This document shows positions 4,412 through 49,356 of a stretch of DNA of 64,000 nucleotides, in pieces. Position 1 is the stretch's first letter. The number at the start of each line of letters is the position of its first letter. This stretch comes from Corallococcus sp. EGB (GTDB taxonomy: Bacteria > Myxococcota > Myxococcia > Myxococcales > Myxococcaceae). Under the pieces are notes generated by a model that saw nothing but the letters and a program-made list of their open reading frames with translations, did not search any database and was not told the origin of the DNA. A program made the translations under genes and the position numbers. The DNA is taken from the NCBI RefSeq assembly GCF_019968905.1, contig NZ_CP079946.1, forward strand, positions 3,038,001-3,102,000, in the 5' to 3' direction.

Positions 4412-5469
4412 GACTTCCTCCCCGCTCCCAGCTTGGGCGCGAGCTTCTCCACGATGAGACTTCCCAGGGCGTTCGGATCCGCGCGCGCATTGCGAGCGGG
4501 CAGCCCCACCACCTGCTCCACGAAGCGCACGCCCACCGCGTTGTCCGTGGCGGGCCCGGCCACCATGTCCATCTCGATGCCGTACACCTCGCGCAGGTGC
4601 CGCACGCCGCCGGCCGCGCCCACGGGGTCGTTGGCGCACAGGATGTACGCGCCGCCCAGGGCCTTGAGCTCCGGGTCCGCCAGGATGGCCTGCACGCCGT
4701 ACTCGCCCATGATGCCGTCGCCCGTCTCCGCGACGATGACGTCCACGTCCTGCGCCGCCATCTCCGAAAAGACAATCCGCGCCACCTTGGACGCGGTGCG
4801 CGCGCCGGTGCACACGACGCCCGCGTCGGTGAAGTCCATCACCACGTCCGCGCCGCTGTCCTGCATGGACAGGGTGTCGCGCATCAGCGACACGCCCGTG
4901 AGCTTCGCGCCGCCCACCCGGTAGCCCGCCTGGGCGAGCTTGCGCACCACGACGCTGGCCGCGTACGTCTTGCCCGCGTTCATGCAGGTGCCCACCACGT
5001 ACACCACCGGGCACGTCACCGCCCTCGACGTGCCCTTGAGCGCGCCGGTGGAGATGTGCGCGTGCTGGCCCGCGCGCGACTGGAACTCCGGGAAGGTGAG
5101 GACCTGGCCCAGCACCTCCGCCTCGAAGGGCGCGCCCACGCCCGGGTTGTGCGACGTGCACTTCCCGATGACGCCGCCCATGTTGAGGATGTTGAGCCTG
5201 TCGCCCACCGTCACGGACGCGGGCACGATGCCCTCGTAGCCGTGCAGCGCGTTGCGGTGGCCGAGCGCGCCCACCACGATGTCGCCCGCATGGAGCGTGA
5301 CGAGCCGGCCGTTCACGTCCTCCAGCTGGTTGTAGACGCTCTTCTCCCCGTGGATGCGCACCGCGATGACGGCGCCTTCCTCGCACTTGACCTCATCCGT
5401 GAGGTGCACCGTGCGCCCCACCTGGAGGTTGCGCGTGACACTGCCCACCTTGTCGACGTGGATCTTCAT
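4408..5469 (-). CDS. P-loop NTPase of the BioD/MobB/DUF1611-like type, arginine operon member
   Basis: The protein has 353 residues. Residues 1-140 look like a beta-rich domain with many Gly and Val and a GKCTSHNPG segment. Residues 154-350 begin with strand VVYVVG and a P-loop GTCMNAGKT (160-168), followed by KLTG, MDF and a VDVIVAETGDG strand. This layout resembles SIMIBI-class enzymes such as dethiobiotin synthetase and the DUF1611 family, whose member DgcN is described as a D-glutamate N-acetyltransferase. It lies between argG (4-bp gap) and argC (ATGA overlap), so a role in arginine synthesis is likely. The exact reaction is unknown. No argA or argJ is seen in the operon. Confidence 0.75.
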   Translation of the reverse strand: MKIHVDKVGSVTRNLQVGRTVHLTDEVKCEEGAVIAVRIHGEKSVYNQLEDVNGRLVTLHAGDIVVGALGHRNALHGYEGIVPASVTVGDRLNILNMGGVIGKCTSHNPGVGAPFEAEVLGQVLTFPEFQSRAGQHAHISTGALKGTSRAVTCPVVYVVGTCMNAGKTYAASVVVRKLAQAGYRVGGAKLTGVSLMRDTLSMQDSGADVVMDFTDAGVVCTGARTASKVARIVFSEMAAQDVDVIVAETGDGIMGEYGVQAILADPELKALGGAYILCANDPVGAAGGVRHLREVYGIEMDMVAGPATDNAVGVRFVEQVVGLPARNARADPNALGSLIVEKLAPKLGAGRKS

Positions 5470-5473
5470 GTCG

Positions 5474-6661
5474 TCACTTCGCTTTCTGCGAGAGCATCTG
5501 CGCGACGCCGTAGAGCTTGGCGAACCCCGCCGCCTCCGTCCCCGTCCACAACACGTTGGCCTCTCCGTACGTGGCCACCTTCGCGTCCATCAGCGAGTGT
5601 GGCGAACGCACGCCTTCCACGACGTGGGCGCGCGGGGTGAGCACCAGCTTCACCTCGCCCGTCACGCGGTCCTGCGAGGAGGCGAGGAACGCCTCCAGGT
5701 CCTTCACCAGCGGGTCGAAGAAGTGCCCCTCGTGCAGCAGCGACCCGTACAGGTTGCCCACCGTCTCCTTCCAGAAGAGCTGCTTGCCGGACAGCACCAG
5801 CTTCTCCAGCTCGCGGTGCGACGCGATGAGCAGGTGCGCGGCGGGCGCCTCGAAGCCCACGCGGCCCTTGATGCCCAGGATGGTGTCGCCCAGGTGCACG
5901 CCCCGGCCGATGCCGTACGGCCGGCCCACGGCGTTGAGCTTCTCCACCACGGCCACCGCGGACATCGCCTTGCCGTCGAGCGCCACCGGCACGCCCTTGT
6001 CAAAGGAGATGATCAGCGGCTGCGGCTTCAGGCCGGTGGGGATCTCGCCGCCGGGGAAGGCCGCTTCCGGCAGGGTGCTCCACGAGTCCAGCGTCTCACG
6101 GCCGCCCACGGACGTGCCCCACATGCCCTCGTTGACGGAGTACGTGCCCGTCTTCGCCGGAAGGTGGAAGCCGCGCTCCGCGAGGAAGGAGATCTCCTGC
6201 TGGCGGGAGAGCGCCAGGTCGCGGATGGGGGTGATGAGCTGCAGCTGCGGCGCGAGCGTGCGGAAGGCCACGTCGAAGCGGACCTGATCATTCCCCGCGC
6301 CGGTGCTGCCGTGGGCCACGGCCTGCACGCCCAGCTTCTCCGCCATGCGCACGGCCTCCACGGCCTGGCAGGCGCGCTCGGCGGAGACGCTCAGCGGGTA
6401 GAGCTGGCCGCGCAGCACGTTGCCGGCGATGAGGAAGCGCAGGTAGCCCTGGAAGAGGGTGTCGCGCGCGTCCACCGTGTGGTGCGCCACCGCGCCCAGC
6501 TTCTGGGACAGGGCCTGGATGCGCTCCAGCTGCTCGGGCGGGAAGCCGCCCGTGTCCACGGTGACGGTGGTGACGTCCCAGCCCTGCTCGCGCAGGTACA
6601 CGGTGCAGAAGGCGGTATCGAGGCCGCCGGAGAACGCCAGCACCACGGACTTCTTGCTCAT
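5474..6661 (-). CDS. argG: Argininosuccinate synthase ArgG (Bacteroidetes/Xanthomonas-like branch)
   Basis: The protein has 395 residues. ArgG condenses citrulline and aspartate with ATP to argininosuccinate. The N-type ATP pyrophosphatase loop SGGLDT lies at residues 11-16, and ATP/citrulline-binding segments AHGSTGAGNDQVRF and TYSVNEGMWG are present. Phrases such as TVTVDTGGF resemble, from memory, the ArgG branch found in organisms that carbamoylate an N-acyl-ornithine, which fits the operon. ATG 6661 is used because the conserved strand KSVVLAFSGG begins right after it. It is 40 bp downstream of argH and 4 bp upstream of the P-loop gene. Confidence 0.94.
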   Translation of the reverse strand: MSKKSVVLAFSGGLDTAFCTVYLREQGWDVTTVTVDTGGFPPEQLERIQALSQKLGAVAHHTVDARDTLFQGYLRFLIAGNVLRGQLYPLSVSAERACQAVEAVRMAEKLGVQAVAHGSTGAGNDQVRFDVAFRTLAPQLQLITPIRDLALSRQQEISFLAERGFHLPAKTGTYSVNEGMWGTSVGGRETLDSWSTLPEAAFPGGEIPTGLKPQPLIISFDKGVPVALDGKAMSAVAVVEKLNAVGRPYGIGRGVHLGDTILGIKGRVGFEAPAAHLLIASHRELEKLVLSGKQLFWKETVGNLYGSLLHEGHFFDPLVKDLEAFLASSQDRVTGEVKLVLTPRAHVVEGVRSPHSLMDAKVATYGEANVLWTGTEAAGFAKLYGVAQMLSQKAK

Positions 6662-6701
6662 CTTCGGACTCCTGTTGCTGCGAAAGGGGTGATGAAAGGA
6701 T

Positions 6702-8051
6702 TCAGGGGGCCCAGACGCGGGCGGCCGCCTGGGCCGCTTGCGCGTGGGTGCGCGTGAGCCAGTCGCGCGCGTCCGCCAGCTCCTCGCGCGCGGTGGCGAG
6801 GCCCAGGTTGCCGGCGCCACCCAGGTGGGTGGCCGTCAGCGCGCCGCGGTCCGGCTGGAAGGTGCCTTCGTTCAGCTGGCGGCCCACCTCGCGGTACGCG
6901 TCACGGAATGGCTGGCCCTGGGCCACGAGCGCGTAGGCGTGGTGCGCGGCGTAGAGCGTGTCGTCGCACGCCGCGCGCGCCTTCTCCACGTTCACCTTCA
7001 GCGCGGGCACCAGCCGCGAGAGCACCTCCAACAGCGCCTTCGCGCTGGTGAGGGCCTGGAGGGTGGGGCGCTTCAGCAGCTGGAAGTCACGGTGGTAGCT
7101 GGAGGGAAGCCCGCCGGCCACCGCCTCCACCTGGTGCGAAAGGCCGCGCAGCTCGCGGCAGCGGCCCCGGGCCAGCTCCACCACGTCCGGGTTCTTCTTC
7201 TGCGGCATGATGGACGAGCCGGTCGTGAAGGCATCCGGCAGGGCCAGGAAGCCGAACTCGTCCATGCTGTAGAGCTGCACGTCCCACAGCCACTTCTCCA
7301 GAGTGCCCGCCACCGAGCACGCCCAGGTGAGCAGCGCCGCTTCATGCCGCCCCCGACTGTCCTGCGCGTCGATGGGGCTGCGTTGAACGCGCGTAAAACC
7401 AAGCAACCGCGCGACATATTCACGGTCGATGGGCAGCGGCACGCCGAAGCCCGCGGCGGCGCCCAGCGGGCAGCGGTCGAGCCGCCCCCACACGCCCTTC
7501 AGCGCCTCCAGCTCCTCCAGCAGTCCCTCCGCGAACGCCATGCCCCACAGGCCGAAGGTGGACGGCATCGCGCGGCGCAGGTGCGTGTAGCCGGGCAGGG
7601 GCAGGTCCGCGTGGCTCTGCGCGAAGTCCAGGAACGTGCCCGCCAGCTCCGCCGTGCGCGCGCCCAGCGCGAGCAGCTCCTCGCGCATGAACAAGCGCAG
7701 GGCCAGCAGCACCTGATCATTCCGCGAGCGCGCCAGGTGGATGCGCTTGCCCGCCTCGCCGGTGCGCTCCACGAGCGCGGCCTCCAGCGCGGTGTGGCCG
7801 TCCTCCTGCTCCGGGCGGATGGTGAAGCGGCCCGCGCGGGCTTCGTCGTGCAGCGCGTGCAGGGCGCTCACGAGCGACGCGGCGGCCTCCGGCGCCAGCA
7901 GCCCCACGTGCGCGAGCATGCGCGCGTGCGCGGCGCTCCCCAGCGCGTCGTGCGGGACGAGCGACAGGTCCACCACCGGGTCGTCGCCCACGGTGAAGGC
8001 GTGGATGGCCGCGTCCAACGGCTGGCCCTTGCCCCACAATGTCTCAGCCAC
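6702..8051 (-). CDS. argH: Argininosuccinate lyase ArgH
   Basis: The protein has 449 residues and cleaves argininosuccinate to arginine and fumarate. Landmarks are LARSRNDQV near 107, catalytic His157 in GYTHL, and the fumarase-superfamily signature GSSIMPQKKNP at about 278-288, carrying the mobile catalytic serine. I chose GTG 8051 because a GGGGAGGT ribosome-binding site (complement of 8058-8065) stands 6 nt before it. An in-frame ATG at 8069 would contain that site within the coding region. The GTG start overlaps the end of argE' by 8 bp, so translation is coupled. Confidence 0.93.
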   Translation of the reverse strand: MAETLWGKGQPLDAAIHAFTVGDDPVVDLSLVPHDALGSAAHARMLAHVGLLAPEAAASLVSALHALHDEARAGRFTIRPEQEDGHTALEAALVERTGEAGKRIHLARSRNDQVLLALRLFMREELLALGARTAELAGTFLDFAQSHADLPLPGYTHLRRAMPSTFGLWGMAFAEGLLEELEALKGVWGRLDRCPLGAAAGFGVPLPIDREYVARLLGFTRVQRSPIDAQDSRGRHEAALLTWACSVAGTLEKWLWDVQLYSMDEFGFLALPDAFTTGSSIMPQKKNPDVVELARGRCRELRGLSHQVEAVAGGLPSSYHRDFQLLKRPTLQALTSAKALLEVLSRLVPALKVNVEKARAACDDTLYAAHHAYALVAQGQPFRDAYREVGRQLNEGTFQPDRGALTATHLGGAGNLGLATAREELADARDWLTRTHAQAAQAAARVWAP

Positions 8052-38068: not shown

Positions 38069-38854
38069 TCAGGGCTGCGCGCCCGCGTCGGGGGTTGGAG
38101 CGGTTGTCGGGGGCGTGGCGGACGCGTCACCGGCGGGTGTCGGGGCGGCGGGGCGGGGGGCGGGTGCTACAGGGGTGTTGTCCGGGGCGCTGTCGGTGTG
38201 GACGGCGCGGCGCAGGGCCTCCTCCAGGTCGCGGGCGGCGGGGCCCACGGTGCTGAGCATCTGGTTGGCGGCGCGGGCGTGGCGGTTCTCCGTCTCCGCG
38301 GCGAGCTTGAGCTGGGCGAGGCCTTCCGACACGAGGCGGCGCGCGTCCTCCAGCTTCTGGCGCGCCTGGTAGAAGGCGACGTCGGTGAGCATGGAGTGGA
38401 GGCTGCGGCGCTGCTCCTCCGTGATGCCGGAGAGCTTCTCCGCGCGGCGCAGGTAGTAGAGGCCGCGCTCCACCTTGGCGGGCTCGCCGGACGCGATGCG
38501 CGGGCGGGCCAGGGTCTCCAGGAGGGGGAAGAGGGCGCGGTCCAGGTCGTCACGGTCGGTGAACTTCTGCTGCGTCAGCAGGGTGACGTCCTGGCCTTCC
38601 AGGGGCACAGGCGCGTAGGCGTCCGCGAGGCGCGGGTCCCCGGGGCGGTAGGCGGCGGCGCCGGTGGGCAGGGCGCGGCCCTTCATCACCACCAACTCGC
38701 CGTTCTCCTGCACGACGGTGAAGGTGCGGGCGTTGAGCTGGCCCAGGAGGAAGACGACGCCGGCGCCCAGGCCCAGGATGACGAGGAAGACGACCAGCCG
38801 GGTGAAGGTGCGGCGGGCCCGGTAGCCGAAGCCCTGGGGGGAATGGGTGGTCAT
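38069..38854 (-). CDS. Single-pass membrane protein with helical periplasmic/cytoplasmic domain, unknown
   Basis: The protein has 261 residues. A basic segment (RARRTFTR) precedes one transmembrane helix at about 20-40. A short beta segment follows (FTVVQENGELVVMKGRALPTG), then a helical domain (about 90-215) rich in Leu/Ala/Arg, and a Pro/Ala/Thr-rich tail. FTVVQENGELVV could be a small recognition module; the family is not known to me. ATG 38854 follows a GGAG-like site; an in-frame ATG at 38929 would precede it with unrelated sequence. It is divergent from the giant coiled-coil gene. Confidence 0.7.
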   Translation of the reverse strand: MTTHSPQGFGYRARRTFTRLVVFLVILGLGAGVVFLLGQLNARTFTVVQENGELVVMKGRALPTGAAAYRPGDPRLADAYAPVPLEGQDVTLLTQQKFTDRDDLDRALFPLLETLARPRIASGEPAKVERGLYYLRRAEKLSGITEEQRRSLHSMLTDVAFYQARQKLEDARRLVSEGLAQLKLAAETENRHARAANQMLSTVGPAARDLEEALRRAVHTDSAPDNTPVAPAPRPAAPTPAGDASATPPTTAPTPDAGAQP

Positions 38855-38982
38855 GTCGCCTGCTCTCCGGTCGGACGGGCGTGGGCCCGTGGGTGGGTGG
38901 CCATGAAATTGGGTCTTCTGGGACTCCAACGCTACAGTCCTGGGCCCGCCGGGATCATCATTTGCAATCGACCTTTCGACGC

Positions 38983-41900
38983 ATGGGGCCCAGCGAGCTG
39001 CTGCCCCGCTACATCTTCGCGGAGAGTTTGTTCGCGCGCCGACGGGTGCTCGAGGTCGACGCCGTGGCGTCCACGGGCGGCGAGAGCGCGCGCTTCCTGG
39101 TGGAGCGGGGCGCGCGCACCGTGGTGGCGTGCGACGCGGACGTGGTGGCGGTGGAGGCCGCGCAGAAGGCCCATGCGCACCCGCAGGTGCGCTTCCGGGC
39201 CAACGTCTATGACGACCTGGAGGCGGGAAGCTTCGACCTGGTGCTGGTGACGGACCTGGCGCCCTACGTGCGCGCGCCGGAGCTGTTGGCGGAGCTGGCG
39301 CGGCTGGTGGCCCGGCAGGGCTTCCTGGTGGGCGGCCTGCGCAACATCGCGGGGCTGGCGCTGCCCCAGTTGATGGAGCCGGAAGAGACGGTGCCGCCCA
39401 CGTACGGACAGCTGTTGGACGCGCTGTCCGCGCACTTCCCGCATGTGGAGGTGGCCACGCAGTCGCCGGTGCTGGGCTACCAGCTGGCGTTCGAGCGCGG
39501 TGAAGGGCTGCAGGTGGACGGCTCGCTCGTGCGGCACAGCGAGGCGGCGTACTTCGTGGTGATGGCGGGCCTGGAGCCGGCGCGGGTGGTGGACCCCACG
39601 TGGGTGCAGCTGCCGCCGGAGCCGCTGGCCTTCACGCGCGGCAAGCTGGACGAGGTCGCCGCCCGGGCCAGGACGTGGGAGGAGCGGGCGGGGCGGCTCA
39701 AGGAGGCCGTGTCGAAGCTTCGCGCGGAGATTGGCGACCGCGAGGCGGAGGTCGTGGCGCTCAAGCCGGCGCTGGAGGGCGCGCGGCAGGACATGGCGCG
39801 GCTGACCGCGCAGCTGGAGCAGGCGCGGGGCACGGTGGAGTCCGCTCGCGAGCGGGATGACCTGAGCAGCCGGCTGCGGCGGCGCGAGCTGGAGTTGCAG
39901 GTCGCCACGGAGCGCATCGCGGACGCGGACCGGCGGCTGGCGGCGCAGCGCCTGGAGGTGGAGGCGGCGCAGCGGGCGCAGGCGGACGCGGGCGTGCAGG
40001 TGCTGGCCGCGCAGGAGTCGCTGCGGCTGGAGCGGGCCCGGCGCGAGGAGACGGCCGCGACGCTGGACGAGTCTCGCGAGCGGCTGACGCAGGCGTACAC
40101 GGAGCTGCGGGCGCTGCAGGATGAGTTGGGGGCGCTGCGCATCGACCGGGAGCGGGACCGGCTGGCGGCGGAGCGCGCGCAGGACAGCGCGGAGGACCGG
40201 CGCCGGCAGGCGGAGGCGGCTCGCGAGCGGGAGCTGCGCATCGCGGAGCAGTATTCGACGGCGCTCGCGGCGGTGGAGCACCTGAAGGCGGAGCTGGCGC
40301 GCGCACAGGAGTCGGCGCGGACGGTCGGCGACGCGGTGCCGGTGAAGGAGGCGGAGCTTGCGCGGGCGCGCCGGGAGCTCGCCGAGGCCCAGCAGCGGAT
40401 GCACTCCGCCGAAGGGGCGCGCAAGGACGCGGAGGCGCGGCTTTCGGAGCGTGAGTCGCTGCTGCGCGGTGTGGAGACGGAGCTCGCCGCGGCGCGCGAG
40501 GCGGCAGGCCGGCTGGCGCGGGAGCTGGAGGGACGCGCGCAGTCGGAGTCCGCGGCGCGGGCGCTGGCGGCGCGGTTGGAGGAGGAGCTTCACGCGGCCG
40601 GGCTGCGCCTGGAGGCGCTGGAGGCAGAGCAGAAGCGCGTCGAGTCCGCGCAGCACGTGGCGGGACAGCGGCTGGCGGCGGCGGAGACGGAGCGCGTCCG
40701 CGTGGAGGCGGCGCTCGTCCAGGCCATCGATGCGGAGCGGGCGCAGGCGCAGGCGCAGTTGGAGGAGGCGCTCACCCAGGCCCGTGCCGAGGCGGATGAG
40801 CGGGTGACGAACGCGCTGGCCGCCGCGCATGCCGACGCGGATTCGCGGCAGGAGCGCGCGCTGACGGAGGCCCGTGAGCAGGCGGAGGCCCGGCTCGCGC
40901 AGGCGCTGGAAGAGGCGCGGACTGAGTCGGAGGCCCGGCTCGCGCAGGCGCTGTCGGATGCGGATGCCCGTGTCGAGCGCGCACGGGCGGAGGCGCGGGA
41001 GGCCGCTCAAGCGCTGGATGCCGCCCGCGCCGATGCGGATGCCCGTGTCGAACGTGCGTTGTCGGACGCGGCGCAGGTGTTGGAGGTCGCCAAGGCCGAC
41101 GCGGACGCGCGTGTCGAGCGCACGCGGGTGGAGGCGGCGCAGGCGTTGGAGGCCGCCCGGGTCGATGCGGATGCTCGACTGGCGAAGGCGCTGGCGGAAG
41201 CGGAGAGCCGCCGGGAGCAGGCGCTCGCCGAGATTCGCGCCACCGCTTCGGCTCAACGCAGCAAGCAGCTGGCGGACGTCGAGGCCCGTACGGCCCAGGC
41301 GCTCGCGGAGGCGCGTGCCGAGGCGGAGGCCCAGCAGGCCCAGGCCCTGGCCGAAGCCCGCGCCGAGTCCGAGGCCGAGCGCGTCCGGCAGTTGGAGGAA
41401 GCCGAGGTCCGCTCGGCACGGATGCTCGCGGAGGCGCGCGCCGAAGCCGAGGCCGTCTTCGCCCGTCGGTTGGAGGAGGTGGAAGCCCGCGCGGCCACCG
41501 CGCTCGCTGAAGCCCGCGCCGAGTCGAGTGGCCAGACGGAACAGGTTCTCGCCGGCGTCCGCGCCGAGGCCGAAGCGCGTCTCATGGCGGCGGAGGCCCG
41601 TGCCGCGGAAGCCCTCGATGCGGCGGTCGAACAGGCCCGCTCCGAGGCTCGCGATGTCCTGGCCCGTGAGGTGTGGGAGCACGGCGCCCGGCTCGCGGAA
41701 TCGAACCAGGCCCGAGAGGCCGCCGAGGCTCGCAACACGGAGCTGGAGGCAGCGCTCCGCTCGCTGCGGCAGGAGCTGACCGACTCGGAAGCCCTGGCGG
41801 CGCTCATCCAGGAGGACCTGTCGCGGGAGCAGAAGGCCCGCGCGTCGGTGCAGGCAGAGCTTGCTGCGGCACGCGAGGCCCTGTCCTTCGAACAGGAGCG

Positions 41901-44900
41901 GGGGGCTCGCTGGGAAGCGCTGCTCGCCGATACCCAGGCGCAGCTGCTGGCGGAGCGCGAGCAGCAGTCCCGCGCGCAGGTGGCGCTCGCGAACCTTCAG
42001 GAGTCGCTCGACGCCGAGCGGGCCCTTCGCGCCCGTTTGGAGGGCTCCGAGTCTTCTTGGAACGAAGCGCAGAGCGCGCTGGAGGCGGACCGGCTGCGGC
42101 TGGATGCCGCGCTGGGGGTGGCGCGCACGGTCCTGGAGGAGGAACGCTCGCAGCGGGCCCGACTGGAGACGGCGTTCGCCCAGCTCCAGCAGGACTCCGC
42201 GTCGGCGCTGGAGGAGGAGCGCGCCCGGGCCGAAGCCTCGCGGGTTTCGGCGCAGGAGTCCCGGACACAGCTCGAAGCGGAGCTGTCGGCGGCGCGTGCC
42301 GCGCGGCTGTCCACCGAAGCCGCCTTCGAGCAGACGCGGCAGACCCTTTCAGAGGTCCAGGCCGCCTTCACCGAAGCGCAGCGGACGAACGAAGCCGCGA
42401 TGCAGGAGCTGCGGCAGTCGCACGAGGCCGCGTCGGACGAGGCGCGTCGTTATGCCCGTGAGCTGGACGAGGCCCGTGCCGCGCTGTCGGACGCGAAGCA
42501 GTCGCAGGCGGCCCTGGAGTCGACCGTGCGCGAGCTTCGCGCGGAGCTCACCGAGGCTCGGCGGTCCGAGATGGAGGCGCTGTCCTCGCTGGATGAAGCG
42601 CGCACGCAGGATGCTCGCGACCGTGAGTCTCGCGCGAAGGACGAGTCCGCGCTTCGTTCGGAGCTGGAAGCCCTGCGCGCGGAGCTCACGGCTCAGCAGG
42701 TGCGCGTGTCCGACGCGGAGCAGGCTCGGGCCGAGGTCGAGATCCGGCTCTCGGAAGTCGAGGCGCGCCGTGCCGAGCTGGAAGCGTCGTTGTCGGACTC
42801 CGAGTCCCGCCTCGCGGCAGAGGCGGCCCGCTTCGGGGCCGAGACCGCGCGAGCGACCACGCTGGCGCAGGCCCTGGCGGAGGCCGAGGCCCGGCAGGCG
42901 GCCGTGTCTTCACAGCGGACCACGCTGGAGCAGGCGCTCGCCGACGCGGAGGCCCGTCACGCCGACGATGCCGCGCGACTGGCCTCGCTGGAACAGGCCC
43001 TGGCGGAGGCGGAGTCTCAGCGGGCCAGCGAGACGGCGCGCCATGCTTCGCTGAGCCAGACGCTCGCGGACGCGGAGGCCCGGCTTGCCGCCGCGTCGAC
43101 ACGGCGCTCGGAACTGGAAGAGGCGCTCTCGGATGTGGAGGTCCAGCGGACCACTGAAGCCACGCGACGTGCCGAGCTGGAAGCGTCGCTCGCGGAGGTG
43201 GAGGCCCACCTGGCCGCGGAGTTCACGCGCCGCGCCGAGCTGGAAGCGTCCATCGCCACGGCGGAGTCCGCGGTGGCCGCCGGGTCCACGCGCCGCTCCG
43301 AACTGGAAGCTTCGCTGAAGGACGCGGAGACCCGTCTCGCCACGCTGGAGCAGGCGCTCGCGGACGCGGAGAAGCGCGCCGCCTCCGAGACGTCGCGCCG
43401 TGTCGGACTGGAAGCCTCCCTGACGGAGGTGGAGTTCCGGCTCGCCGCCGAGACGGCGAACCTCAGCGCACTGGAGGATTCGCTCGCGCAGGCGGAGGCC
43501 CGGCTCGCGGAAGGCTCGCGGTCGCAGGACGCGGCGCTCGAGTCCGAGGCTCGGGCTGCACGCCTCGCGGAAACCCTTTCCGCGCGCGAGCAGGAGCTGC
43601 GCGAGGCCGGTGCCCTGCGGGTCTCCATGGAGGCGCAGCTGGAAGGCGCGCTCTCGCGGGCCGAGCGGCAGCAGCAGGACCTGGACGAGCTGCGCGGGCA
43701 GCTGGGACTGAAGGAGCAGGAGCTGACGGCCCTGCGCGCGGAGACGGCGCGCCTGGGCGCCGCGCACCAGGAGCTGATGCGCCTGGGCTCCGAGCTGCAA
43801 CGGGCGCACGCCGCGCTGCATGAGCGGAACCAGCAGGTCGGCCGGCTGGAAGCGGAGCTGGTGGACGCCAGCGACCGGCTCGCCGCGACGCGCGAGCACG
43901 CGGAGGTGCTCGTGGTGCAGCTCGAGACCGCGCGCCGCTTCGCGGGCAAGGCCACGACCCTGGAGTCGTCGCTGGAAGGCCTGCGCGCCGAACTGGAAGC
44001 CGCGCGCGCGGACGCCGCCCGCCTCACGGAGACCGCCCAGAGCGGGAACGAGCGCACCGCCTCCCTGGAGGCCCAGCTCGCGGAGCTCACCGCGCGCGCG
44101 GAAGGGGAGCGGACCGACCTGGAAGCCCGGCTCGCGAGCGCCGCCACCGAGAAGGCCGCGCTGCAGGTTCGCTTGGAGGAGGTCTCCTCGGAGCAGGCCG
44201 AACTGGAGCTGCGCCTGACCGAAGCGCTCACGAGCGCCGGCACGGACAAGGCCACGCTGGAGCTGCGCCTCAACGAGGCACTCGCAAGGGTCGGCCTGGA
44301 GAAGGCCGAGCTGGAGTCGCGCCTCAACGAGGTCCTCGCGAACGCTGGGACGGAGAAGGCGGAGCTCGAAGCACGCCTCGCCGAAGCGCTCGCCCAGGCC
44401 GCCACGGAGAAGGCGGAGCTCGAAGCCCGCCTTGCACGATCCGCCGAACAGACCCGCGAGTCCTTTGCCGCACTGGAGGCCCGGCTCGCCACGGCGCTCG
44501 CGGACGCCCAGGGTGGACAGGCCGCGCTGGAGGCCCGCGTCACCTCGCTGACCCAGGCCGTCGCCGACGCGGAGGCCCACGCCCGCCGCGCGGACGCCGA
44601 GCGCACCGCCATGGCCTCCGAACGCGAGCGCCTCCAGTCGGACCTGACCGTGGCCCGCGCCGCCCGCGTCCGCCTGGAGGGCCGCACCAACTCCCTGGAG
44701 ACCGCCGCCGCGGACGCCGCGCGCCTGCTGGACACCGAGCGCGCCGAACGCGACCAGCTCGCCGCGCGGATCCGCGAACAGCAGGCCCGGCTGGAAGCGT
44801 TGGAGGCCGAACGCGCGACCCTGCTCCAGGCCGTGGAAGAGGCCCGGAGCGCCGCCGCCCCGCCCCCGGAGGACGTGCTGGAGATGGCCGCGGAGATGGA

Positions 44901-45069
44901 GGTCCTCCAGGCCCACGTCGAGAAGATGCAGGACCAGCTCGCCGCCCGGGAGGCCGAACTGGCCGAGCTGCGCCGTGCCAGCGCCCCCGCCGCCTCCGGG
45001 ACTTCACGCCGGGCCATGCCCGCCCTGGACGTCCCGTCCGCGCCCAAGAAGGTCGGCGAGCGCGAATAA
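38983..45069 (+). CDS. Giant coiled-coil protein with N-terminal methyltransferase-like domain
   Basis: The protein has 2,028 residues. Residues 1-210 look like a class I methyltransferase fold: strand VLEVDAVASTGGESARFL where LDxGCGxG is expected, TVVACDADVVAVEAA for motif II, and FDLVLVTDLAPYVRAPELLAELARLV for the motif IV/V region. The SAM glycine loop is degenerate, so activity is doubtful. Residues about 221-1990 are almost unbroken heptad-rich coiled coil of Ala, Glu, Arg and Leu with internal repeats. The tail is SGTSRRAMPALDVPSAPKK. The head-plus-coil plan recalls myxobacterial AglZ and FrzS, which carry pseudo-receiver heads. It is 24 bp upstream of dapF. No transmembrane segment. 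ATG 38983 starts the folded head. Confidence 0.85.
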   Translation: MGPSELLPRYIFAESLFARRRVLEVDAVASTGGESARFLVERGARTVVACDADVVAVEAAQKAHAHPQVRFRANVYDDLEAGSFDLVLVTDLAPYVRAPELLAELARLVARQGFLVGGLRNIAGLALPQLMEPEETVPPTYGQLLDALSAHFPHVEVATQSPVLGYQLAFERGEGLQVDGSLVRHSEAAYFVVMAGLEPARVVDPTWVQLPPEPLAFTRGKLDEVAARARTWEERAGRLKEAVSKLRAEIGDREAEVVALKPALEGARQDMARLTAQLEQARGTVESARERDDLSSRLRRRELELQVATERIADADRRLAAQRLEVEAAQRAQADAGVQVLAAQESLRLERARREETAATLDESRERLTQAYTELRALQDELGALRIDRERDRLAAERAQDSAEDRRRQAEAARERELRIAEQYSTALAAVEHLKAELARAQESARTVGDAVPVKEAELARARRELAEAQQRMHSAEGARKDAEARLSERESLLRGVETELAAAREAAGRLARELEGRAQSESAARALAARLEEELHAAGLRLEALEAEQKRVESAQHVAGQRLAAAETERVRVEAALVQAIDAERAQAQAQLEEALTQARAEADERVTNALAAAHADADSRQERALTEAREQAEARLAQALEEARTESEARLAQALSDADARVERARAEAREAAQALDAARADADARVERALSDAAQVLEVAKADADARVERTRVEAAQALEAARVDADARLAKALAEAESRREQALAEIRATASAQRSKQLADVEARTAQALAEARAEAEAQQAQALAEARAESEAERVRQLEEAEVRSARMLAEARAEAEAVFARRLEEVEARAATALAEARAESSGQTEQVLAGVRAEAEARLMAAEARAAEALDAAVEQARSEARDVLAREVWEHGARLAESNQAREAAEARNTELEAALRSLRQELTDSEALAALIQEDLSREQKARASVQAELAAAREALSFEQERGARWEALLADTQAQLLAEREQQSRAQVALANLQESLDAERALRARLEGSESSWNEAQSALEADRLRLDAALGVARTVLEEERSQRARLETAFAQLQQDSASALEEERARAEASRVSAQESRTQLEAELSAARAARLSTEAAFEQTRQTLSEVQAAFTEAQRTNEAAMQELRQSHEAASDEARRYARELDEARAALSDAKQSQAALESTVRELRAELTEARRSEMEALSSLDEARTQDARDRESRAKDESALRSELEALRAELTAQQVRVSDAEQARAEVEIRLSEVEARRAELEASLSDSESRLAAEAARFGAETARATTLAQALAEAEARQAAVSSQRTTLEQALADAEARHADDAARLASLEQALAEAESQRASETARHASLSQTLADAEARLAAASTRRSELEEALSDVEVQRTTEATRRAELEASLAEVEAHLAAEFTRRAELEASIATAESAVAAGSTRRSELEASLKDAETRLATLEQALADAEKRAASETSRRVGLEASLTEVEFRLAAETANLSALEDSLAQAEARLAEGSRSQDAALESEARAARLAETLSAREQELREAGALRVSMEAQLEGALSRAERQQQDLDELRGQLGLKEQELTALRAETARLGAAHQELMRLGSELQRAHAALHERNQQVGRLEAELVDASDRLAATREHAEVLVVQLETARRFAGKATTLESSLEGLRAELEAARADAARLTETAQSGNERTASLEAQLAELTARAEGERTDLEARLASAATEKAALQVRLEEVSSEQAELELRLTEALTSAGTDKATLELRLNEALARVGLEKAELESRLNEVLANAGTEKAELEARLAEALAQAATEKAELEARLARSAEQTRESFAALEARLATALADAQGGQAALEARVTSLTQAVADAEAHARRADAERTAMASERERLQSDLTVARAARVRLEGRTNSLETAAADAARLLDTERAERDQLAARIREQQARLEALEAERATLLQAVEEARSAAAPPPEDVLEMAAEMEVLQAHVEKMQDQLAAREAELAELRRASAPAASGTSRRAMPALDVPSAPKKVGERE
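42850..43353 (+). repeat. Eight tandem 63-bp units (21-residue coiled-coil repeats)
   Basis: Eight consecutive 21-residue units, exactly three heptads each, are encoded without gaps. They begin R-x-x-x-L at each start (RATTL, QRTTL, RLASL, RHASL, RRSEL, RRAEL, RRAEL, RRSEL). One more unit lies at 42766-42828 before a 7-residue spacer and a further one at 43396-43458. They probably arose by in-gene duplication. Confidence 0.85.
44242..44442 (+). repeat. Tandem 54-bp units (18-residue repeats)
   Basis: Three full 18-residue units beginning TDKATLELRL, LEKAELESRL and TEKAELEARL, plus a partial fourth (TEKAELEARL), lie near the C-terminal end of the giant coil. Eighteen residues equal five helical turns rather than whole heptads, so this segment should have altered supercoil geometry. 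Confidence 0.8.
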
Positions 45070-45093: not shown

Positions 45094-45945
45094 GTGGACG
45101 CAAGCGAACGCATCTTCAAGTACCACGGCCTGGGCAACGACTTCGTCGTCCTGGACCGCCGCCGCACGGGCGTGGACATCAACGCGGAGCAGTCCCGCTG
45201 GCTGTGCGACCGGCGCCGGGGCATCGGTGCGGACGGGGTGCTCGCCATCCTCCCGTCGCCCCGCGGCCTTGCCCGCATGGTCGTCCACAACGCCGACGGC
45301 AGCATCGCGGAGATGTGCGGCAACGGCCTGCGCTGTGCGGTGAAGTATCTGGTGGACCACTCCGGCGAGCACCCCGCGCTCATCGACGTGGAGACCGGAG
45401 CGGGCGTCCTCACCTGCGAGCCCGGCTACGGCGACGGCGGCGTCGTCGGCGTGGACATCTCCATGGGCCCGGCGCGGCTGGTGGCCGCGAACCTGCCCTC
45501 CGGGCCGACCGGACAGCCCTTCGTGCGCGCCCCCGTGCCCGGCCATGAAGCGTTGCTCGGCACGGCGGTGAACATGGGCAACCCGCACCTGGTGCTCCTG
45601 GATCAACCCCTGGAGGCCGCCGAGCGCCTGGGCCCCGTCCTGGAGCGGCACCCCGCCTTCCCGGACCGCACCAACGTGGAGTTCGTCCGCGTGGACGAGG
45701 ACGGTCTCACGGTCGTGGTCTGGGAGCGCGGCTGCGGCCTCACCCAGGCCTGTGGGACGGGCGCGTGCGCGTCCGCGGTGGCGGCCGTGCTGGCGAAGCG
45801 CCTGCCCTCGAACGCCTGGCTGCGCGTCACCCTGCCGGGCGGCGACCTGAAAATCCGCGTTCCGGACGACCTGTCCGACATCCGGCTGCGGGGCCCCGTG
45901 TCCTTCGTCTTCGAAGGCGTTGTCGCGCTTCCAAGGGCCCGATAG
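45094..45945 (+). CDS. dapF: Diaminopimelate epimerase DapF
   Basis: GTG start; 283 residues. It converts LL- to meso-diaminopimelate for peptidoglycan and lysine. The two catalytic cysteines are Cys75 in EMCGNGLRC and the one in QACGTGACAS near 222. YHGLGNDFVVLD and NMGNPHLVL complete the signature. GTG 45094 is 24 bp after the giant coiled-coil gene and keeps the conserved FKYHGLGND at the normal place. Co-transcription with a large scaffold-like protein and two response regulators is unusual for dapF. Confidence 0.96.
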   Translation: MDASERIFKYHGLGNDFVVLDRRRTGVDINAEQSRWLCDRRRGIGADGVLAILPSPRGLARMVVHNADGSIAEMCGNGLRCAVKYLVDHSGEHPALIDVETGAGVLTCEPGYGDGGVVGVDISMGPARLVAANLPSGPTGQPFVRAPVPGHEALLGTAVNMGNPHLVLLDQPLEAAERLGPVLERHPAFPDRTNVEFVRVDEDGLTVVVWERGCGLTQACGTGACASAVAAVLAKRLPSNAWLRVTLPGGDLKIRVPDDLSDIRLRGPVSFVFEGVVALPRAR

Positions 45946-45981: not shown

Positions 45982-47832
45982 GTGGCCGGTCCCATCCTCG
46001 TCGTCGACGACGACCTGTTCTTCCGACAACTCGCCACGGACCTGCTGTCGCGCCGGGGGCACCGCGTGGTGGCGGTGGAGAACGCCACCCTCGCCCTGGA
46101 AGAGGTCTCCCGGGCGACGTTCGACCTGGTCCTCACCGACGTGGTGATGCCCGGCGTGGACGGCTTCGCGCTCACCGCGCGCCTGCGTGAGCGGGACCCC
46201 GAGCAGGAGGTCATCCTCGTCAGCACCCGCGACGACGTGCAGGGCTCGGAGGTCGCGCTGCGCCTGGGCGTGGCGGACTGCCTGGTCAAGCCCGTGGAGG
46301 AGTCGGACCTGCTGCTCGCGGTGGACCGCGCCATGGAGCGCGCCCAGCTGCGCCACGAGCGCGCGCGGCTCCAGGACGAGAACCTGGAGTTCGCCCGCTT
46401 CCACAACCTCCAGCAGCGCTGCCTGGAGCTGCTCTCCCATCCGGACCTGGAGTGGCTCCAGGAGCGCGTCATCGCGGACCTGGGCGCGGTGTGCGACGCG
46501 CAGAGCGCCGCGCTGTGGGTGGTGGACGACCGGGGAGACCTGGCGCTGCGCTCGTACCGGGGCCTGCTCGACAAGCAGTTCCTGCCGGAGAAGATGAGCC
46601 CGGAGGGGCCGCTGTCCCTGCGCCTGCGTGAAGCGGCGCCGTGGCTCGCGCGCGATGAGCGCTCCCCGGTGCTGTACGTGCCGCTGGTGGCCACGGGCGA
46701 GGTGATGGGCCTGGCGCAGCTGTCGGATCCGCTCACCGGCGACTTCCGGCTGGAGCACACGCGCGACGCGAAGGTGCTGGCGGACTTCGCCGCGGTGGGC
46801 GTGAAGAACGGCCGCAAGCTGATGGCGCTCCAGCGCCTGGGCCTGCGCGACCGCGACACCGCCGCGTACAACCTCAGCTACTTCACCGACTATGCGTCCA
46901 AGGAGATCTACAAGGCGCGCCGGTACGGCCGCACGTTCTCGCTCCTGACCTTCAGCATCGACAACCTGCCGCTCGTGCGCGTGCGGCTGGGCGCGCAGGA
47001 CGCGAAGAAGGCCGTGCGCGGCATCATCAAGGCGCTCAGCAAGATCATCCGCGACTCGGACGTCATCGCGAAGGCGAGCGACCAGGAGTTCTACCTCCTG
47101 TTGCCTGAGACGGACTTCTTCGGCGCGATGATGTTCGTGCGCCGCGCGGTGGCCGCCGTGCGCGACGAGCCGGAGGTGCAGGACGTGGAGCAGCGCCTGC
47201 CGCTGGCGCTCGTGGGCGGGGCCAGCACCTTTCCCAAGGACGGCGAGGACTTCGACGAGCTGGTGCACCGCTGCCGCCGCCGCATGGACGAGCGCCGCGC
47301 GTCGCTCCAGCGCCGGCTGATGCTGGACGGGCTGCCGTTCTGGGACGAGGTGGACCTGCTTTTGGGCACGCCCAACAGCCCGCGCCTGCCCACGGATGAC
47401 CGCGCGGAGCCCAGCCGCCGGGGCAAGGTGGCGGACGTGCTCTTCGACGAGCTCCAGGTGGAGATCGCCCGGGAGCTGGTGCGCGACCCGGGCTCGCGCG
47501 GGCTGCTCTACGTGGGCGGCCCGGAGATCCGCGCGGACCTGCCGCTGGCGGTGGGCCTGGAGCAGGCGCCGCCGGACCTGGCGTCGCGCATCTACCTGTT
47601 GGGAAGGCGCGTGGACCTGGAGTCGCACGCGGCGCTCACGCCGGTGTTCCTGGAGGGCGACGAACGGGTGTCGCGCCACGAGTTCATCCTCTGGCTGTCG
47701 GAGAGCGCGTCGTACGCGCTGATCCAACGGCGGGGGCGGGGCGCGACGTGGGGGTTCCACACCTCGGACACCGCGGTGGTGGACGGGCTCATCTCCAAGC
47801 TGCAGGCCGAGTACGACCTGCAGCCCTACTGA
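45982..47832 (+). CDS. Response regulator with GAF-like and degenerate GGDEF domains
   Basis: GTG start; 616 residues. A receiver covers 1-120 with Asp pair VVDDD, phospho-acceptor Asp in LVLTDVVMPG and Lys in LVKPVE. A GAF-like domain (about 145-280) holds LWVVDDRGDLALRSYRG and LYVPLVATGEVMGLAQL. A GGDEF-like domain (about 295-440) begins YNLSYFTDYASKEIYKARRYGRTFSLL but has SDQEF in place of GGDEF, so c-di-GMP synthesis is unlikely. The final ~170 residues (DVLFDELQVEIARELVRDPGSRGLLYVGG) form an extra domain I do not recognise. It follows dapF by 36 bp and precedes another receiver gene by 24 bp. Confidence 0.88.
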   Translation: MAGPILVVDDDLFFRQLATDLLSRRGHRVVAVENATLALEEVSRATFDLVLTDVVMPGVDGFALTARLRERDPEQEVILVSTRDDVQGSEVALRLGVADCLVKPVEESDLLLAVDRAMERAQLRHERARLQDENLEFARFHNLQQRCLELLSHPDLEWLQERVIADLGAVCDAQSAALWVVDDRGDLALRSYRGLLDKQFLPEKMSPEGPLSLRLREAAPWLARDERSPVLYVPLVATGEVMGLAQLSDPLTGDFRLEHTRDAKVLADFAAVGVKNGRKLMALQRLGLRDRDTAAYNLSYFTDYASKEIYKARRYGRTFSLLTFSIDNLPLVRVRLGAQDAKKAVRGIIKALSKIIRDSDVIAKASDQEFYLLLPETDFFGAMMFVRRAVAAVRDEPEVQDVEQRLPLALVGGASTFPKDGEDFDELVHRCRRRMDERRASLQRRLMLDGLPFWDEVDLLLGTPNSPRLPTDDRAEPSRRGKVADVLFDELQVEIARELVRDPGSRGLLYVGGPEIRADLPLAVGLEQAPPDLASRIYLLGRRVDLESHAALTPVFLEGDERVSRHEFILWLSESASYALIQRRGRGATWGFHTSDTAVVDGLISKLQAEYDLQPY

Positions 47833-47856: not shown

Positions 47857-49356
47857 GTGGCCCAGGTGCGGAAGATCCTCATCGCCGACCCCGACCTCGA
47901 CTCGGTGCGCGCCCTGTCGCGGGCGCTGCGCACGAAGGGGTATCAGGTGCACTACGCGCCGGATGGCTCGCGGGCCCTGGAGGTCGCGGTGCTCCGGCAC
48001 CCGGACCTGACGCTCTTCGACGAGGCGTGCCGGCTCCTGGACGCGCGCACGTTCGTGCAGATCCTCCGCACCAACCCGCGCACGGAAGACATCCCCGTGG
48101 TGCTCACCACGTCCAGCCTGGACACGGACCGGGCGCGGGGCATGCGGGACGGCACGCTGCGCAAGCCCTTCAACCTGGACGAGGTGCTCAGCCGCATCGA
48201 GCACATCTTCCGCCGCAACGAAGCGGCCAAGGACCTGAAGAGCGAGCAGCAGGAGATCGAAGGCTCGCTCAGCCAGCTCAGCATCCCGGACCTCATGCAG
48301 ATCCTGGGCATGAACAAGCGCAACGGGCGCCTGGCGCTGGAGCGCGGTTCGGAGCGCGGGGAGATCACCGTCTCGGAGGGGCGCACGGTGAACGCGCGGC
48401 TCGGGAGGGTGGAAGGGGAGAAGGCGCTGTTCCGGCTCCTGGCGTGGACGGAGGGCAACTTCACCTTCACGCCCGGCACCAGCGCCGCGCGTCCGCGCAT
48501 CAACCGCGCGATGGACGACGCGCTCCTGGAGGGCATGCGCCAGTCGGACGAGGTGAACCGCCTGCTGCCGGGTCTGCCGCCGCGCCACACGCGGCTGATG
48601 CTGGCACCGGAGGTGGACCTGTCCGAGGAGCAGCACCCGGTGACGGCGCAGGTGATGGAGCTGCTCCGTCAGCCGCGAGCGCTGGGCGAGGTGCTGGACC
48701 TGGCGCCCGCGACGGACATGGAGGTGCTGGGCGTGCTGTCCACGCTGCTCCAGAAGGGCGTGGCGCGCCCGACGGAGAGCGAAGGCCAGAACCTGGGCGC
48801 GGGAGACCTCATCGGCGCGGCGGAGGTGCACGCGCTGCGCGGGCGCCTCTTGCGCACCCGCACGCTGGCGAAGGTGGCGACGGCGAAGGTCTTCGTCTGT
48901 GGCAGCGGCTCGTCCGCGGCGCGGCGCATCCTGGCGCGGGTGCCGGGGCTGGAGGCGATGTCCGCGGACCCCACCGCGGTGAAGAGCGGCTTCGGGACGC
49001 TGGGCCGTCTTGAGTTGAGCGACGTGCTGAACGTGGACTTCTGCGTGCTGCCGCCCGCGGAGGCCGCGCGTCCGCTGTGGCGCCCGTTCAGCGCGGGGGC
49101 CATTGGCGCGCTGTTGATGGACACGTCGGAGCCGGCGGTGCGGCTGGCGCATTATCTCGCGTGGGAGGTCCGCATCCCCATCGTGGTGGTGGGCACGGAG
49201 GTCCCCGCGCCGCTGCAGGGAGCCCCGGCCGGAGTGAGCGCCCCGGGCGAGGACCTCACCGAAGCCCTGCGCGCCATGCTGGTCCAGGCGCTCAACCCCG
49301 CGCCCACGCTGCCCGGCGTCACCCAGGTGCAGCGCGCGTCCGTGACACCCAGCTGA
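47857..49356 (+). CDS. Response regulator with DUF4388 domain and extra C-terminal domain
   Basis: GTG start; 499 residues. Receiver 1-125: acidic ILIADPDLD, phospho-acceptor region LTLFDEACRLLD, LTTSS and RKPFN, so phosphorylation is plausible. A DUF4388/PATAN-like domain follows (about 135-235): EGSLSQLSIPDLMQILGMNKRNGRLAL, ITVSEGRTVNARLGRVEGEKALFRLLAWTEGNFTF. A winged-helix-like stretch (270-315) comes next, then a Rossmann-like C-terminus (KVFVCGSGSSAARRIL ... IGALLMDTSEP ... IPIVVVGTEV) reminiscent of a small GTPase without a true P-loop. It probably transmits a signal by protein contacts rather than DNA binding. Confidence 0.85.
   Translation: MAQVRKILIADPDLDSVRALSRALRTKGYQVHYAPDGSRALEVAVLRHPDLTLFDEACRLLDARTFVQILRTNPRTEDIPVVLTTSSLDTDRARGMRDGTLRKPFNLDEVLSRIEHIFRRNEAAKDLKSEQQEIEGSLSQLSIPDLMQILGMNKRNGRLALERGSERGEITVSEGRTVNARLGRVEGEKALFRLLAWTEGNFTFTPGTSAARPRINRAMDDALLEGMRQSDEVNRLLPGLPPRHTRLMLAPEVDLSEEQHPVTAQVMELLRQPRALGEVLDLAPATDMEVLGVLSTLLQKGVARPTESEGQNLGAGDLIGAAEVHALRGRLLRTRTLAKVATAKVFVCGSGSSAARRILARVPGLEAMSADPTAVKSGFGTLGRLELSDVLNVDFCVLPPAEAARPLWRPFSAGAIGALLMDTSEPAVRLAHYLAWEVRIPIVVVGTEVPAPLQGAPAGVSAPGEDLTEALRAMLVQALNPAPTLPGVTQVQRASVTPS

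Follow-up and report, generated by a model that had tools for sequence, protein, structure and literature searches.

Locus and architecture

The 64,000-nucleotide window analysed here (Corallococcus sp. EGB, contig NZ_CP079946.1, positions 3,038,001 to 3,102,000) encodes a very long protein, hereafter the rod protein, in which an N-terminal head with a methyltransferase fold is followed by a coiled coil of about 1,740 residues. Immediately upstream, and divergent to it, lies a gene for a single-pass membrane protein. The open reading frame (ORF) of the rod protein runs where a first-pass annotation of the sequence had placed it and encodes 2,028 residues from the ATG at 38983. Starting at the in-frame TTG at 38962 instead, the protein would gain seven residues that resemble the start of many relatives; because many relatives begin seven codons earlier with similar sequence, this TTG may be the true start. 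The parts of the protein and the features upstream of it are as follows.

38983-45069, plus strand: rod protein, 2,028 residues from its ATG (ORF list, translation)
38983-39618, plus strand: head, residues 1-212, class I methyltransferase fold with the non-canonical loop VLEVDAVASTGGESARFL (Pfam, AlphaFold2, Foldseek and VIA-align, alignments)
39643-44859, plus strand: rod, residues 221-1959, near-continuous, mostly heptad coiled coil (periodicity, phase-keeping insertions and deletions)
40693-41742, plus strand: alanine-rich hendecad (11-residue) segment, residues 571-920 (period against shuffles; marked in the Corallococcus rods tested)
44860-45066, plus strand: variable, proline-containing C-terminal tail, residues 1960-2028, 69 residues (sequence)
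38069-38854, minus strand: candidate partner, single-pass membrane protein of 261 residues from the ATG at 38854 (divergent to the rod gene; predicted helical domain)
38855-38961, no strand: short divergent intergenic region, putative shared promoter region (coordinates)

The head domain

The head matches the Pfam family Methyltransf_11 over residues 29-116 (E = 1.7e-8; 35.4 bits against a cut-off of 21.2), and its AlphaFold2 model has a class I methyltransferase fold, with a mean predicted local distance difference test score (pLDDT) of 71.8. Confidence is high for approximately residues 11-120 and 141-160 and falls below a pLDDT of 50 at residues 125-135, 161-187 and 203-236. Foldseek with this model gave 541 PDB matches at E <= 0.001, many of them methyltransferases, and VIA-align superposed it on methyltransferases with Z scores of up to 16.1 (172 residues at 3.0 Å). 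Sequence searches of the PDB returned generic methyltransferases (one match, then 29 matches, one of the latter a shikimate dehydrogenase). The methyltransferase-like fold that the first-pass annotation had proposed to check by structure prediction and Foldseek is thus a class I fold.

Motif I of the head reads VLEVDAVASTGGESARFL and lacks the G-x-G glycine loop of class I methyltransferases. The earlier description of this loop, VDAVASTGG, as a broken glycine loop agrees with its rarity in the same genome, where 29 of the 30 best among 49 Methyltransf_11 matches have conventional or near-conventional loops: 21 fit the conventional pattern and eight more do so or nearly so by eye (two with GCxAG, one with H replacing the acid). 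The window's head ranks only 32nd among these matches, so the control set, every member of which outscores it, leans towards typical enzymes. The single clear deviant among the controls, L175, is a small methyltransferase whose loop, VLGLASAGGQQ, is partly like that of the window's head. Across the Myxococcaceae the loop of the head is typically GAVAS-T-x-G-x-S-A, with the first G replaced by D in Corallococcus and some others; an altered loop is common to most families seen, and takes forms other than the Myxococcaceae type elsewhere.

These features bear on the idea that the protein is an active or re-purposed S-adenosylmethionine (SAM) enzyme resembling WbdD, whose rod would hold an active site off the membrane while the altered loop binds SAM or a related adenosine ligand. 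The fold is that of a methyltransferase, and an alignment of 41 heads shows no variation at E24 and D51, the acidic residues that follow strands 1 and 2, nor at D91 and several loop residues; against this, most families seen have a loop without G-x-G, and the acid after strand 2 is replaced in family f6 and part of f3. Canonical-looking loops occur in the f11 heads and in L132, and WbdD itself, a methyltransferase-kinase head on a coiled coil in excerpts of PMC3482155 and PMC5082667, offers a precedent. The rod protein, however, has no match to a kinase domain in Pfam, no polysaccharide genes stand directly beside its gene in the window, and its rod length is not conserved (see below). Taken together, we consider a SAM enzyme of this kind rather unlikely. 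Because the acidic pocket residues are invariant, SAM binding by the head is neither shown nor excluded, and of the earlier proposal of a pseudo-enzyme head the altered loop stands, whereas the loss of SAM binding does not follow. As judged from its sequence, this is an unusual head and possibly a pseudo-enzyme.

The rod

The coil spans residues 221-1959 and holds two prolines. Its L/I/V/M/F signal has a period of 3.49 with a power of 25.9, a value reached by none of 200 shuffles of the rod (mean 7.0, maximum 14.9). Both the nearly unbroken coil described in the first-pass annotation and its length of about 260 nm, at 0.15 nm per residue, are confirmed. Residues 571-920, about one third of which are alanine, follow an eleven-residue pattern (period 3.695; 0/500 shuffles). 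Heptads dominate all 57 distinct rods measured, the window's included (0/100 shuffles each), in a survey of 58 rows (L083 and L054 are one genome) that covers chosen closed rods and leaves out short-rod members. The eleven-residue pattern appears in all 11 same-genus rods (5-8 scanning windows each), among which we counted L112, a metagenome-assembled genome (MAG) record, and is scarce in the others (0-2 scanning windows). The alanine-rich eleven-residue repeats of the window, L109-L117 and L126 mark Corallococcus.

In NCBIfam the rod is most similar to SMC_prok_B (E = 1.5e-23), which raises the prospect of an SMC-like or nucleoid-associated coil. With a score of 82.6 against a cut-off of 567.35, a best stretch that lies in the coil, and no match to an ABC ATPase in Pfam, we reject membership of the SMC family and regard a role of this type as very improbable.

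Head and rod are both under purifying selection: measured against nine Corallococcus genomes, the ratio of non-synonymous to synonymous substitution rates (dN/dS) amounts to 0.10-0.21 in the head and 0.24-0.36 in the rod. The heads of these nine orthologues are 93.4-97.2% identical to the window's. Their ORFs are 2,078-2,244 residues long, next to 2,028 in the window and 2,286 in L112, and all closed ORFs compared span 707-2,286 residues.

Insertions and deletions (indels) in the rod follow the repeat of the coil. Among 103 rod indels, lengths modulo 7 with remainders of 0 to 6 occurred 42, 9, 1, 11, 36, 1 and 3 times; 98 of the 103 fell in {0,1,3,4} and 78 in {0,4}, against 171 of 276 (62%) and 79 of 276, respectively, for simulated random-length indels that were aligned identically. 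This set comes from 10 disjoint close pairs, eight of 18 disjoint pairs having been dropped for identity below 75%; in a broader comparison of 14 overlapping pairs, 79 of 136 indels fell in {0,4}. According to excerpts of PMC5082667, a coil takes up 1, 3 or 4 inserted residues with a local deformation, whereas 2 or 6 strain it to breaking. Rod length therefore drifts while its indels are mostly of kinds that a coil tolerates, so that continuity is under selection and exact length is not. Freedom of exact length argues against a precise ruler, a role that we reject given the variation among close orthologues and the indel pattern.

A mutational origin of the same pattern would involve slippage between DNA repeats in heptad-sized units, in a rod of little function. 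The rod is indeed repetitive and its indels frequent, but lengths of 4, 11 and 18 residues are common besides multiples of 7, and neither the dN/dS of the rod nor the heptad periodicity of every distinct rod measured fits a segment of little function. We find this explanation improbable.

Distribution of the family

The head is present in 93 of 96 genomes of the window's family (counted by eye; the misses are G054, G093 and G123), and the homologue search within Myxococcota that the first-pass annotation had called for found relatives phylum-wide. Recurrence of the long ORF in many genomes rules out an assembly error as the source of the long coil. The head profile matches 178 of 195 phylum genomes at E <= 0.001, some of these matches being ordinary or sugar-locus-type methyltransferases. 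Head-profile scores were 37.8-343.9 bits for members, some of which are rows from which the profile was built, at most 30.4 for other methyltransferases of the same genome and 59.7-78.7 for sugar-locus proteins, so that the score ranges of distant members and of sugar-locus proteins overlap. The L047 head has no Pfam match at E <= 0.001.

The sugar-locus proteins (L143, L145, L158 and L159) have a canonical methyltransferase domain in ORFs of 1,100-1,300 residues and lie in sugar-gene loci of Myxococcota. They are similar to the rod protein in being long methyltransferase ORFs, but they differ in their canonical G-x-G loop, in their neighbours and in forming a separate branch, since the tree sets them apart from the heads (86/86; 14 forks open); we accordingly rejected the notion that every weak profile match is a member. 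With control L184 at the base of the head branch, L175 among the f11 heads and 14 forks open, monophyly of the heads is likely rather than proven.

Among named hits, 53 of 56 carry the labels of Myxococcota taxa or Myxococcales bins. Two others, L124 and L125, are unresolved Delta- or Proteobacteria bins, and L086, labelled Comamonas, has a contig of 603,379 bases, the same length as that of G107 of the window's own family. In the open-access papers searched we found none on the rod protein, a search that would miss papers naming the gene only by its Myxococcus xanthus locus tag, and no homologue with an assigned function came to light. The rod protein would thereby represent an uncharacterised and probably ancient gene family of Myxococcota.

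The neighbouring membrane-protein gene

The genes for the head and the membrane protein are conserved neighbours, a feature absent from the first-pass annotation. In 54 of 56 named loci, mostly close relatives, the membrane-protein gene lies upstream of the head, in 53 of them divergently; the two exceptions are L104, with only 160 bases upstream, and L124, which is without the membrane gene. Over the phylum, 157 of 195 Myxococcota genomes have the gene. Several families show the order phosphoribosyltransferase gene (Pribosyltran), membrane gene, rod gene, in part preceded by a uracil phosphoribosyltransferase gene; the phosphoribosyltransferase gene before the membrane gene is presumably hpt. 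In f10 and f11 the membrane gene and the head gene stand apart.

The 261-residue membrane protein has no match in Pfam. The AlphaFold2 model of its residues 1-226 (mean pLDDT 90.2) begins with a long helix and also contains a small strand region and a helical domain. For this protein Foldseek against the PDB gave no match at E <= 0.001; because the best VIA-align Z score, 7.4, falls within the noise range of the tool, we assign no fold.

Other neighbouring genes

Three further genes follow the rod gene in the window.

45094-45945, plus strand: dapF (diaminopimelate epimerase), 24 bases after the rod gene (Pfam, synteny)
45982-47832, plus strand: receiver-GAF-GGDEF protein with a weak GAF match and the signature ASDQE (Pfam, sequence, synteny)
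47857-49356, plus strand: receiver-DUF4388 protein, DUF4388 being the PATAN domain (Pfam, synteny)

In the receiver-GAF-GGDEF protein, ASDQE replaces GGDEF, so that a degenerate cyclase may be encoded close to an equally degenerate methyltransferase head. The order rod, dapF, receiver-GAF-GGDEF recurs in the f10 locus L128. Of 15 families, 7 (f1, f3, f8, f9, f10, f24 and f25) have a GGDEF or PilZ gene in the few kilobases examined around the locus. Two arrangements recur: a GAF-GGDEF gene may stand upstream, or a receiver-GAF-GGDEF gene may stand downstream. Occurrence varies within families: in f3, PilZ is directly downstream of the rod in L038-L042 and L160 and missing from L035; in f8, a GGDEF/PilZ-class gene precedes the membrane gene in L032 and L144, with none in L033 and L045; and in f25, L141 has such a gene between hpt and the rod gene, with none in L136 and L140.

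Neighbour types were assigned with custom profiles whose training set was a handful of these loci, and most GGDEF and PilZ assignments were confirmed by Pfam (GGDEF in the window, L032, L048, L055, L058, L128, L141, L142, L144 and L150; PilZ in L038, L039, L042 and L160); the stretch of L050 taken for GGDEF had no Pfam match. Genes in distant loci were called by a home-made codon score, and the head model of the neighbour survey missed L132, L136, L137, L139, L140, L142 and L154 at its cut-off, all of which scored as heads with the head profile. Five genomes contain 10-29 GGDEF and 6-37 PilZ matches each, few enough that such neighbours should be rare by chance, although these five were hand-picked and form a biased sample. 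In L047, L048, L033 and L144 (f6, f9 and f8), Pfam identifies a protein with CarboxypepD_reg repeats and a PDZ domain after the rod gene.

Discussion

The chances are about evenly balanced, in our view, that the rod protein is a long coiled-coil scaffold or tether of Myxococcota, anchored or recruited together with its membrane partner and bearing a docking head, as its sequence and those of its relatives suggest. The rod would multimerise into a long, bendable fibre, and the head would be a docking module and not a methylating enzyme. The membrane protein could anchor or recruit one end of the fibre at the inner membrane, with a short N-terminus inside and the helical domain outside, as predicted from the charges around its membrane helix. 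Signalling by cyclic di-GMP (c-di-GMP) might adjust the fibre, which would hold envelope or surface machinery in place, and its reach would matter roughly, not exactly. The first-pass annotation had suggested a new cytoskeletal or polar scaffold; a pseudo-enzyme-like head on a long, selected coil to which no function has been assigned agrees with that suggestion, and a loss of SAM binding and a role in polarity or motility are hypothetical. Besides the membrane-protein gene, that annotation had overlooked the spread of the family through the phylum, the phase-keeping indels, the hendecad segment and the recurring GGDEF/PilZ neighbours.

Several observations weigh against a membrane-linked scaffold with a non-catalytic head. 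First, of the 48 genomes with a listed head match beyond the window's family, only 22 have both genes within 2.5 kb, a count made by eye that required a single contig, included some short contigs and left out three sugar-locus-type genomes. The membrane gene also occurs without a head nearby (for example, L151 and L152), as does the head without a membrane gene nearby (L127, L128, L129-L131 and L160), so the pair is not inseparable. Second, members L043, L048 and L050, outside the periodicity survey, have rods of a few hundred residues, and the L153 lineage has a head of 216 residues without a rod. Third, 8 of 15 families (f6, f7, f11, f13, f17, f27, f28 and f31) showed no GGDEF or PilZ neighbour. 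Finally, because four f11 heads and L132 (f13) have canonical-looking loops and the acidic SAM-site residues, including E24 and D51, are retained, enzyme activity is possible.

A different assignment starts from motility. AglZ of M. xanthus, as the first-pass annotation noted, carries a degenerate head on a long coil. FrzS combines a pseudo-receiver with a large coiled coil in excerpts of PMC11580455 and PMC1974792, and in that respect resembles the rod protein, which likewise has a degenerate signalling-type N-terminal domain on a large coil. By this analogy the head would dock leading-pole regulators and a polar coil would steer type IV pili or gliding. The long C-terminal coiled coil of FrzS and AglZ is present, but a search of the rod protein with Response_reg (Pfam) gave no match, so that it shares their plan, as the first-pass annotation had noted, and does not belong to their family. 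In place of a receiver domain it has a methyltransferase fold, and its gene has a conserved membrane-protein neighbour.

The surroundings of the gene bear on the same possibility. A receiver-DUF4388 protein is encoded downstream in the window, and excerpts of PMC11580455 describe a co-occurrence of PATAN proteins and SgmX in M. xanthus. In L160 (G035), a PilT-family ATPase gene at 5329-6882 (TIGR01420, 446.7 bits, over the cut-off) is the immediate upstream neighbour of the head-rod gene, in a place from which the membrane-protein gene is absent. Among 23 hand-picked genomes, 21 have a PilT match over the curated cut-off, and all match the GltJ profile, only three over its cut-off; G127 and G142, by contrast, keep the head and the membrane gene without a PilT match over the cut-off, a weak argument given that they are draft genomes. 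On this evidence, a polarity or motility scaffold of the FrzS/AglZ type is an unlikely alternative.

The first-pass annotation also held that a methyltransferase-type head on such a rod was not a characterised arrangement, which is too strong in light of WbdD. In WbdD of Escherichia coli O9a, a methyltransferase domain likewise precedes an extended coil, which lies near the membrane. There, an active kinase and methyltransferase accompany a rod that sets chain length, whereas the rod protein has no kinase domain between head and coil, an altered loop and a drifting length: with 2,028 residues in the window and 2,078-2,244 in its close orthologues, it does not have the fixed-length ruler rod of WbdD. 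Its head shares fold and sequence family with class I SAM-dependent methyltransferases (Methyltransf_11) but departs from them in its non-canonical motif I.

A bolder form of the scaffold or tether proposal draws on the golgins, such as giantin, which are long membrane-tethering coils of about 50-600 nm in excerpts of PMC5082667. Golgins are eukaryotic and unrelated to the rod protein, and the comparison is one of analogy. By that analogy, the family could provide a phylum-wide, golgin-type tether, a membrane-recruited fibre of at least a quarter micron that docks through a dead methyltransferase, is adjusted by c-di-GMP and has evolved to keep its coil continuous at no fixed length; we view this as a doubtful, speculative extension. 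If the proposal is true, the family gives a direct handle on how Myxococcota organise their interior over hundreds of nanometres.

More broadly, the rod is a natural experiment in coiled-coil evolution. On average, the length of coiled coils is 3.6 times less variable than that of other regions, according to excerpts of PMC5082667; against this usual low variation, the rod drifts in length while keeping its phase and so separates selection on continuity from selection on length.

Short-rod relatives

Short rods recur in a few relatives. In L119, L121 and L125, which are MAGs of 2.1-2.7 Mb, the head and the membrane gene are kept and the rods are short, in ORFs of 707-750 residues; these genomes possibly come from insect-gut samples, as judged from isolate name. 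Second, shorter head-rod copies (L043, L044 and L045) occur in genomes G084, G092 and G139.

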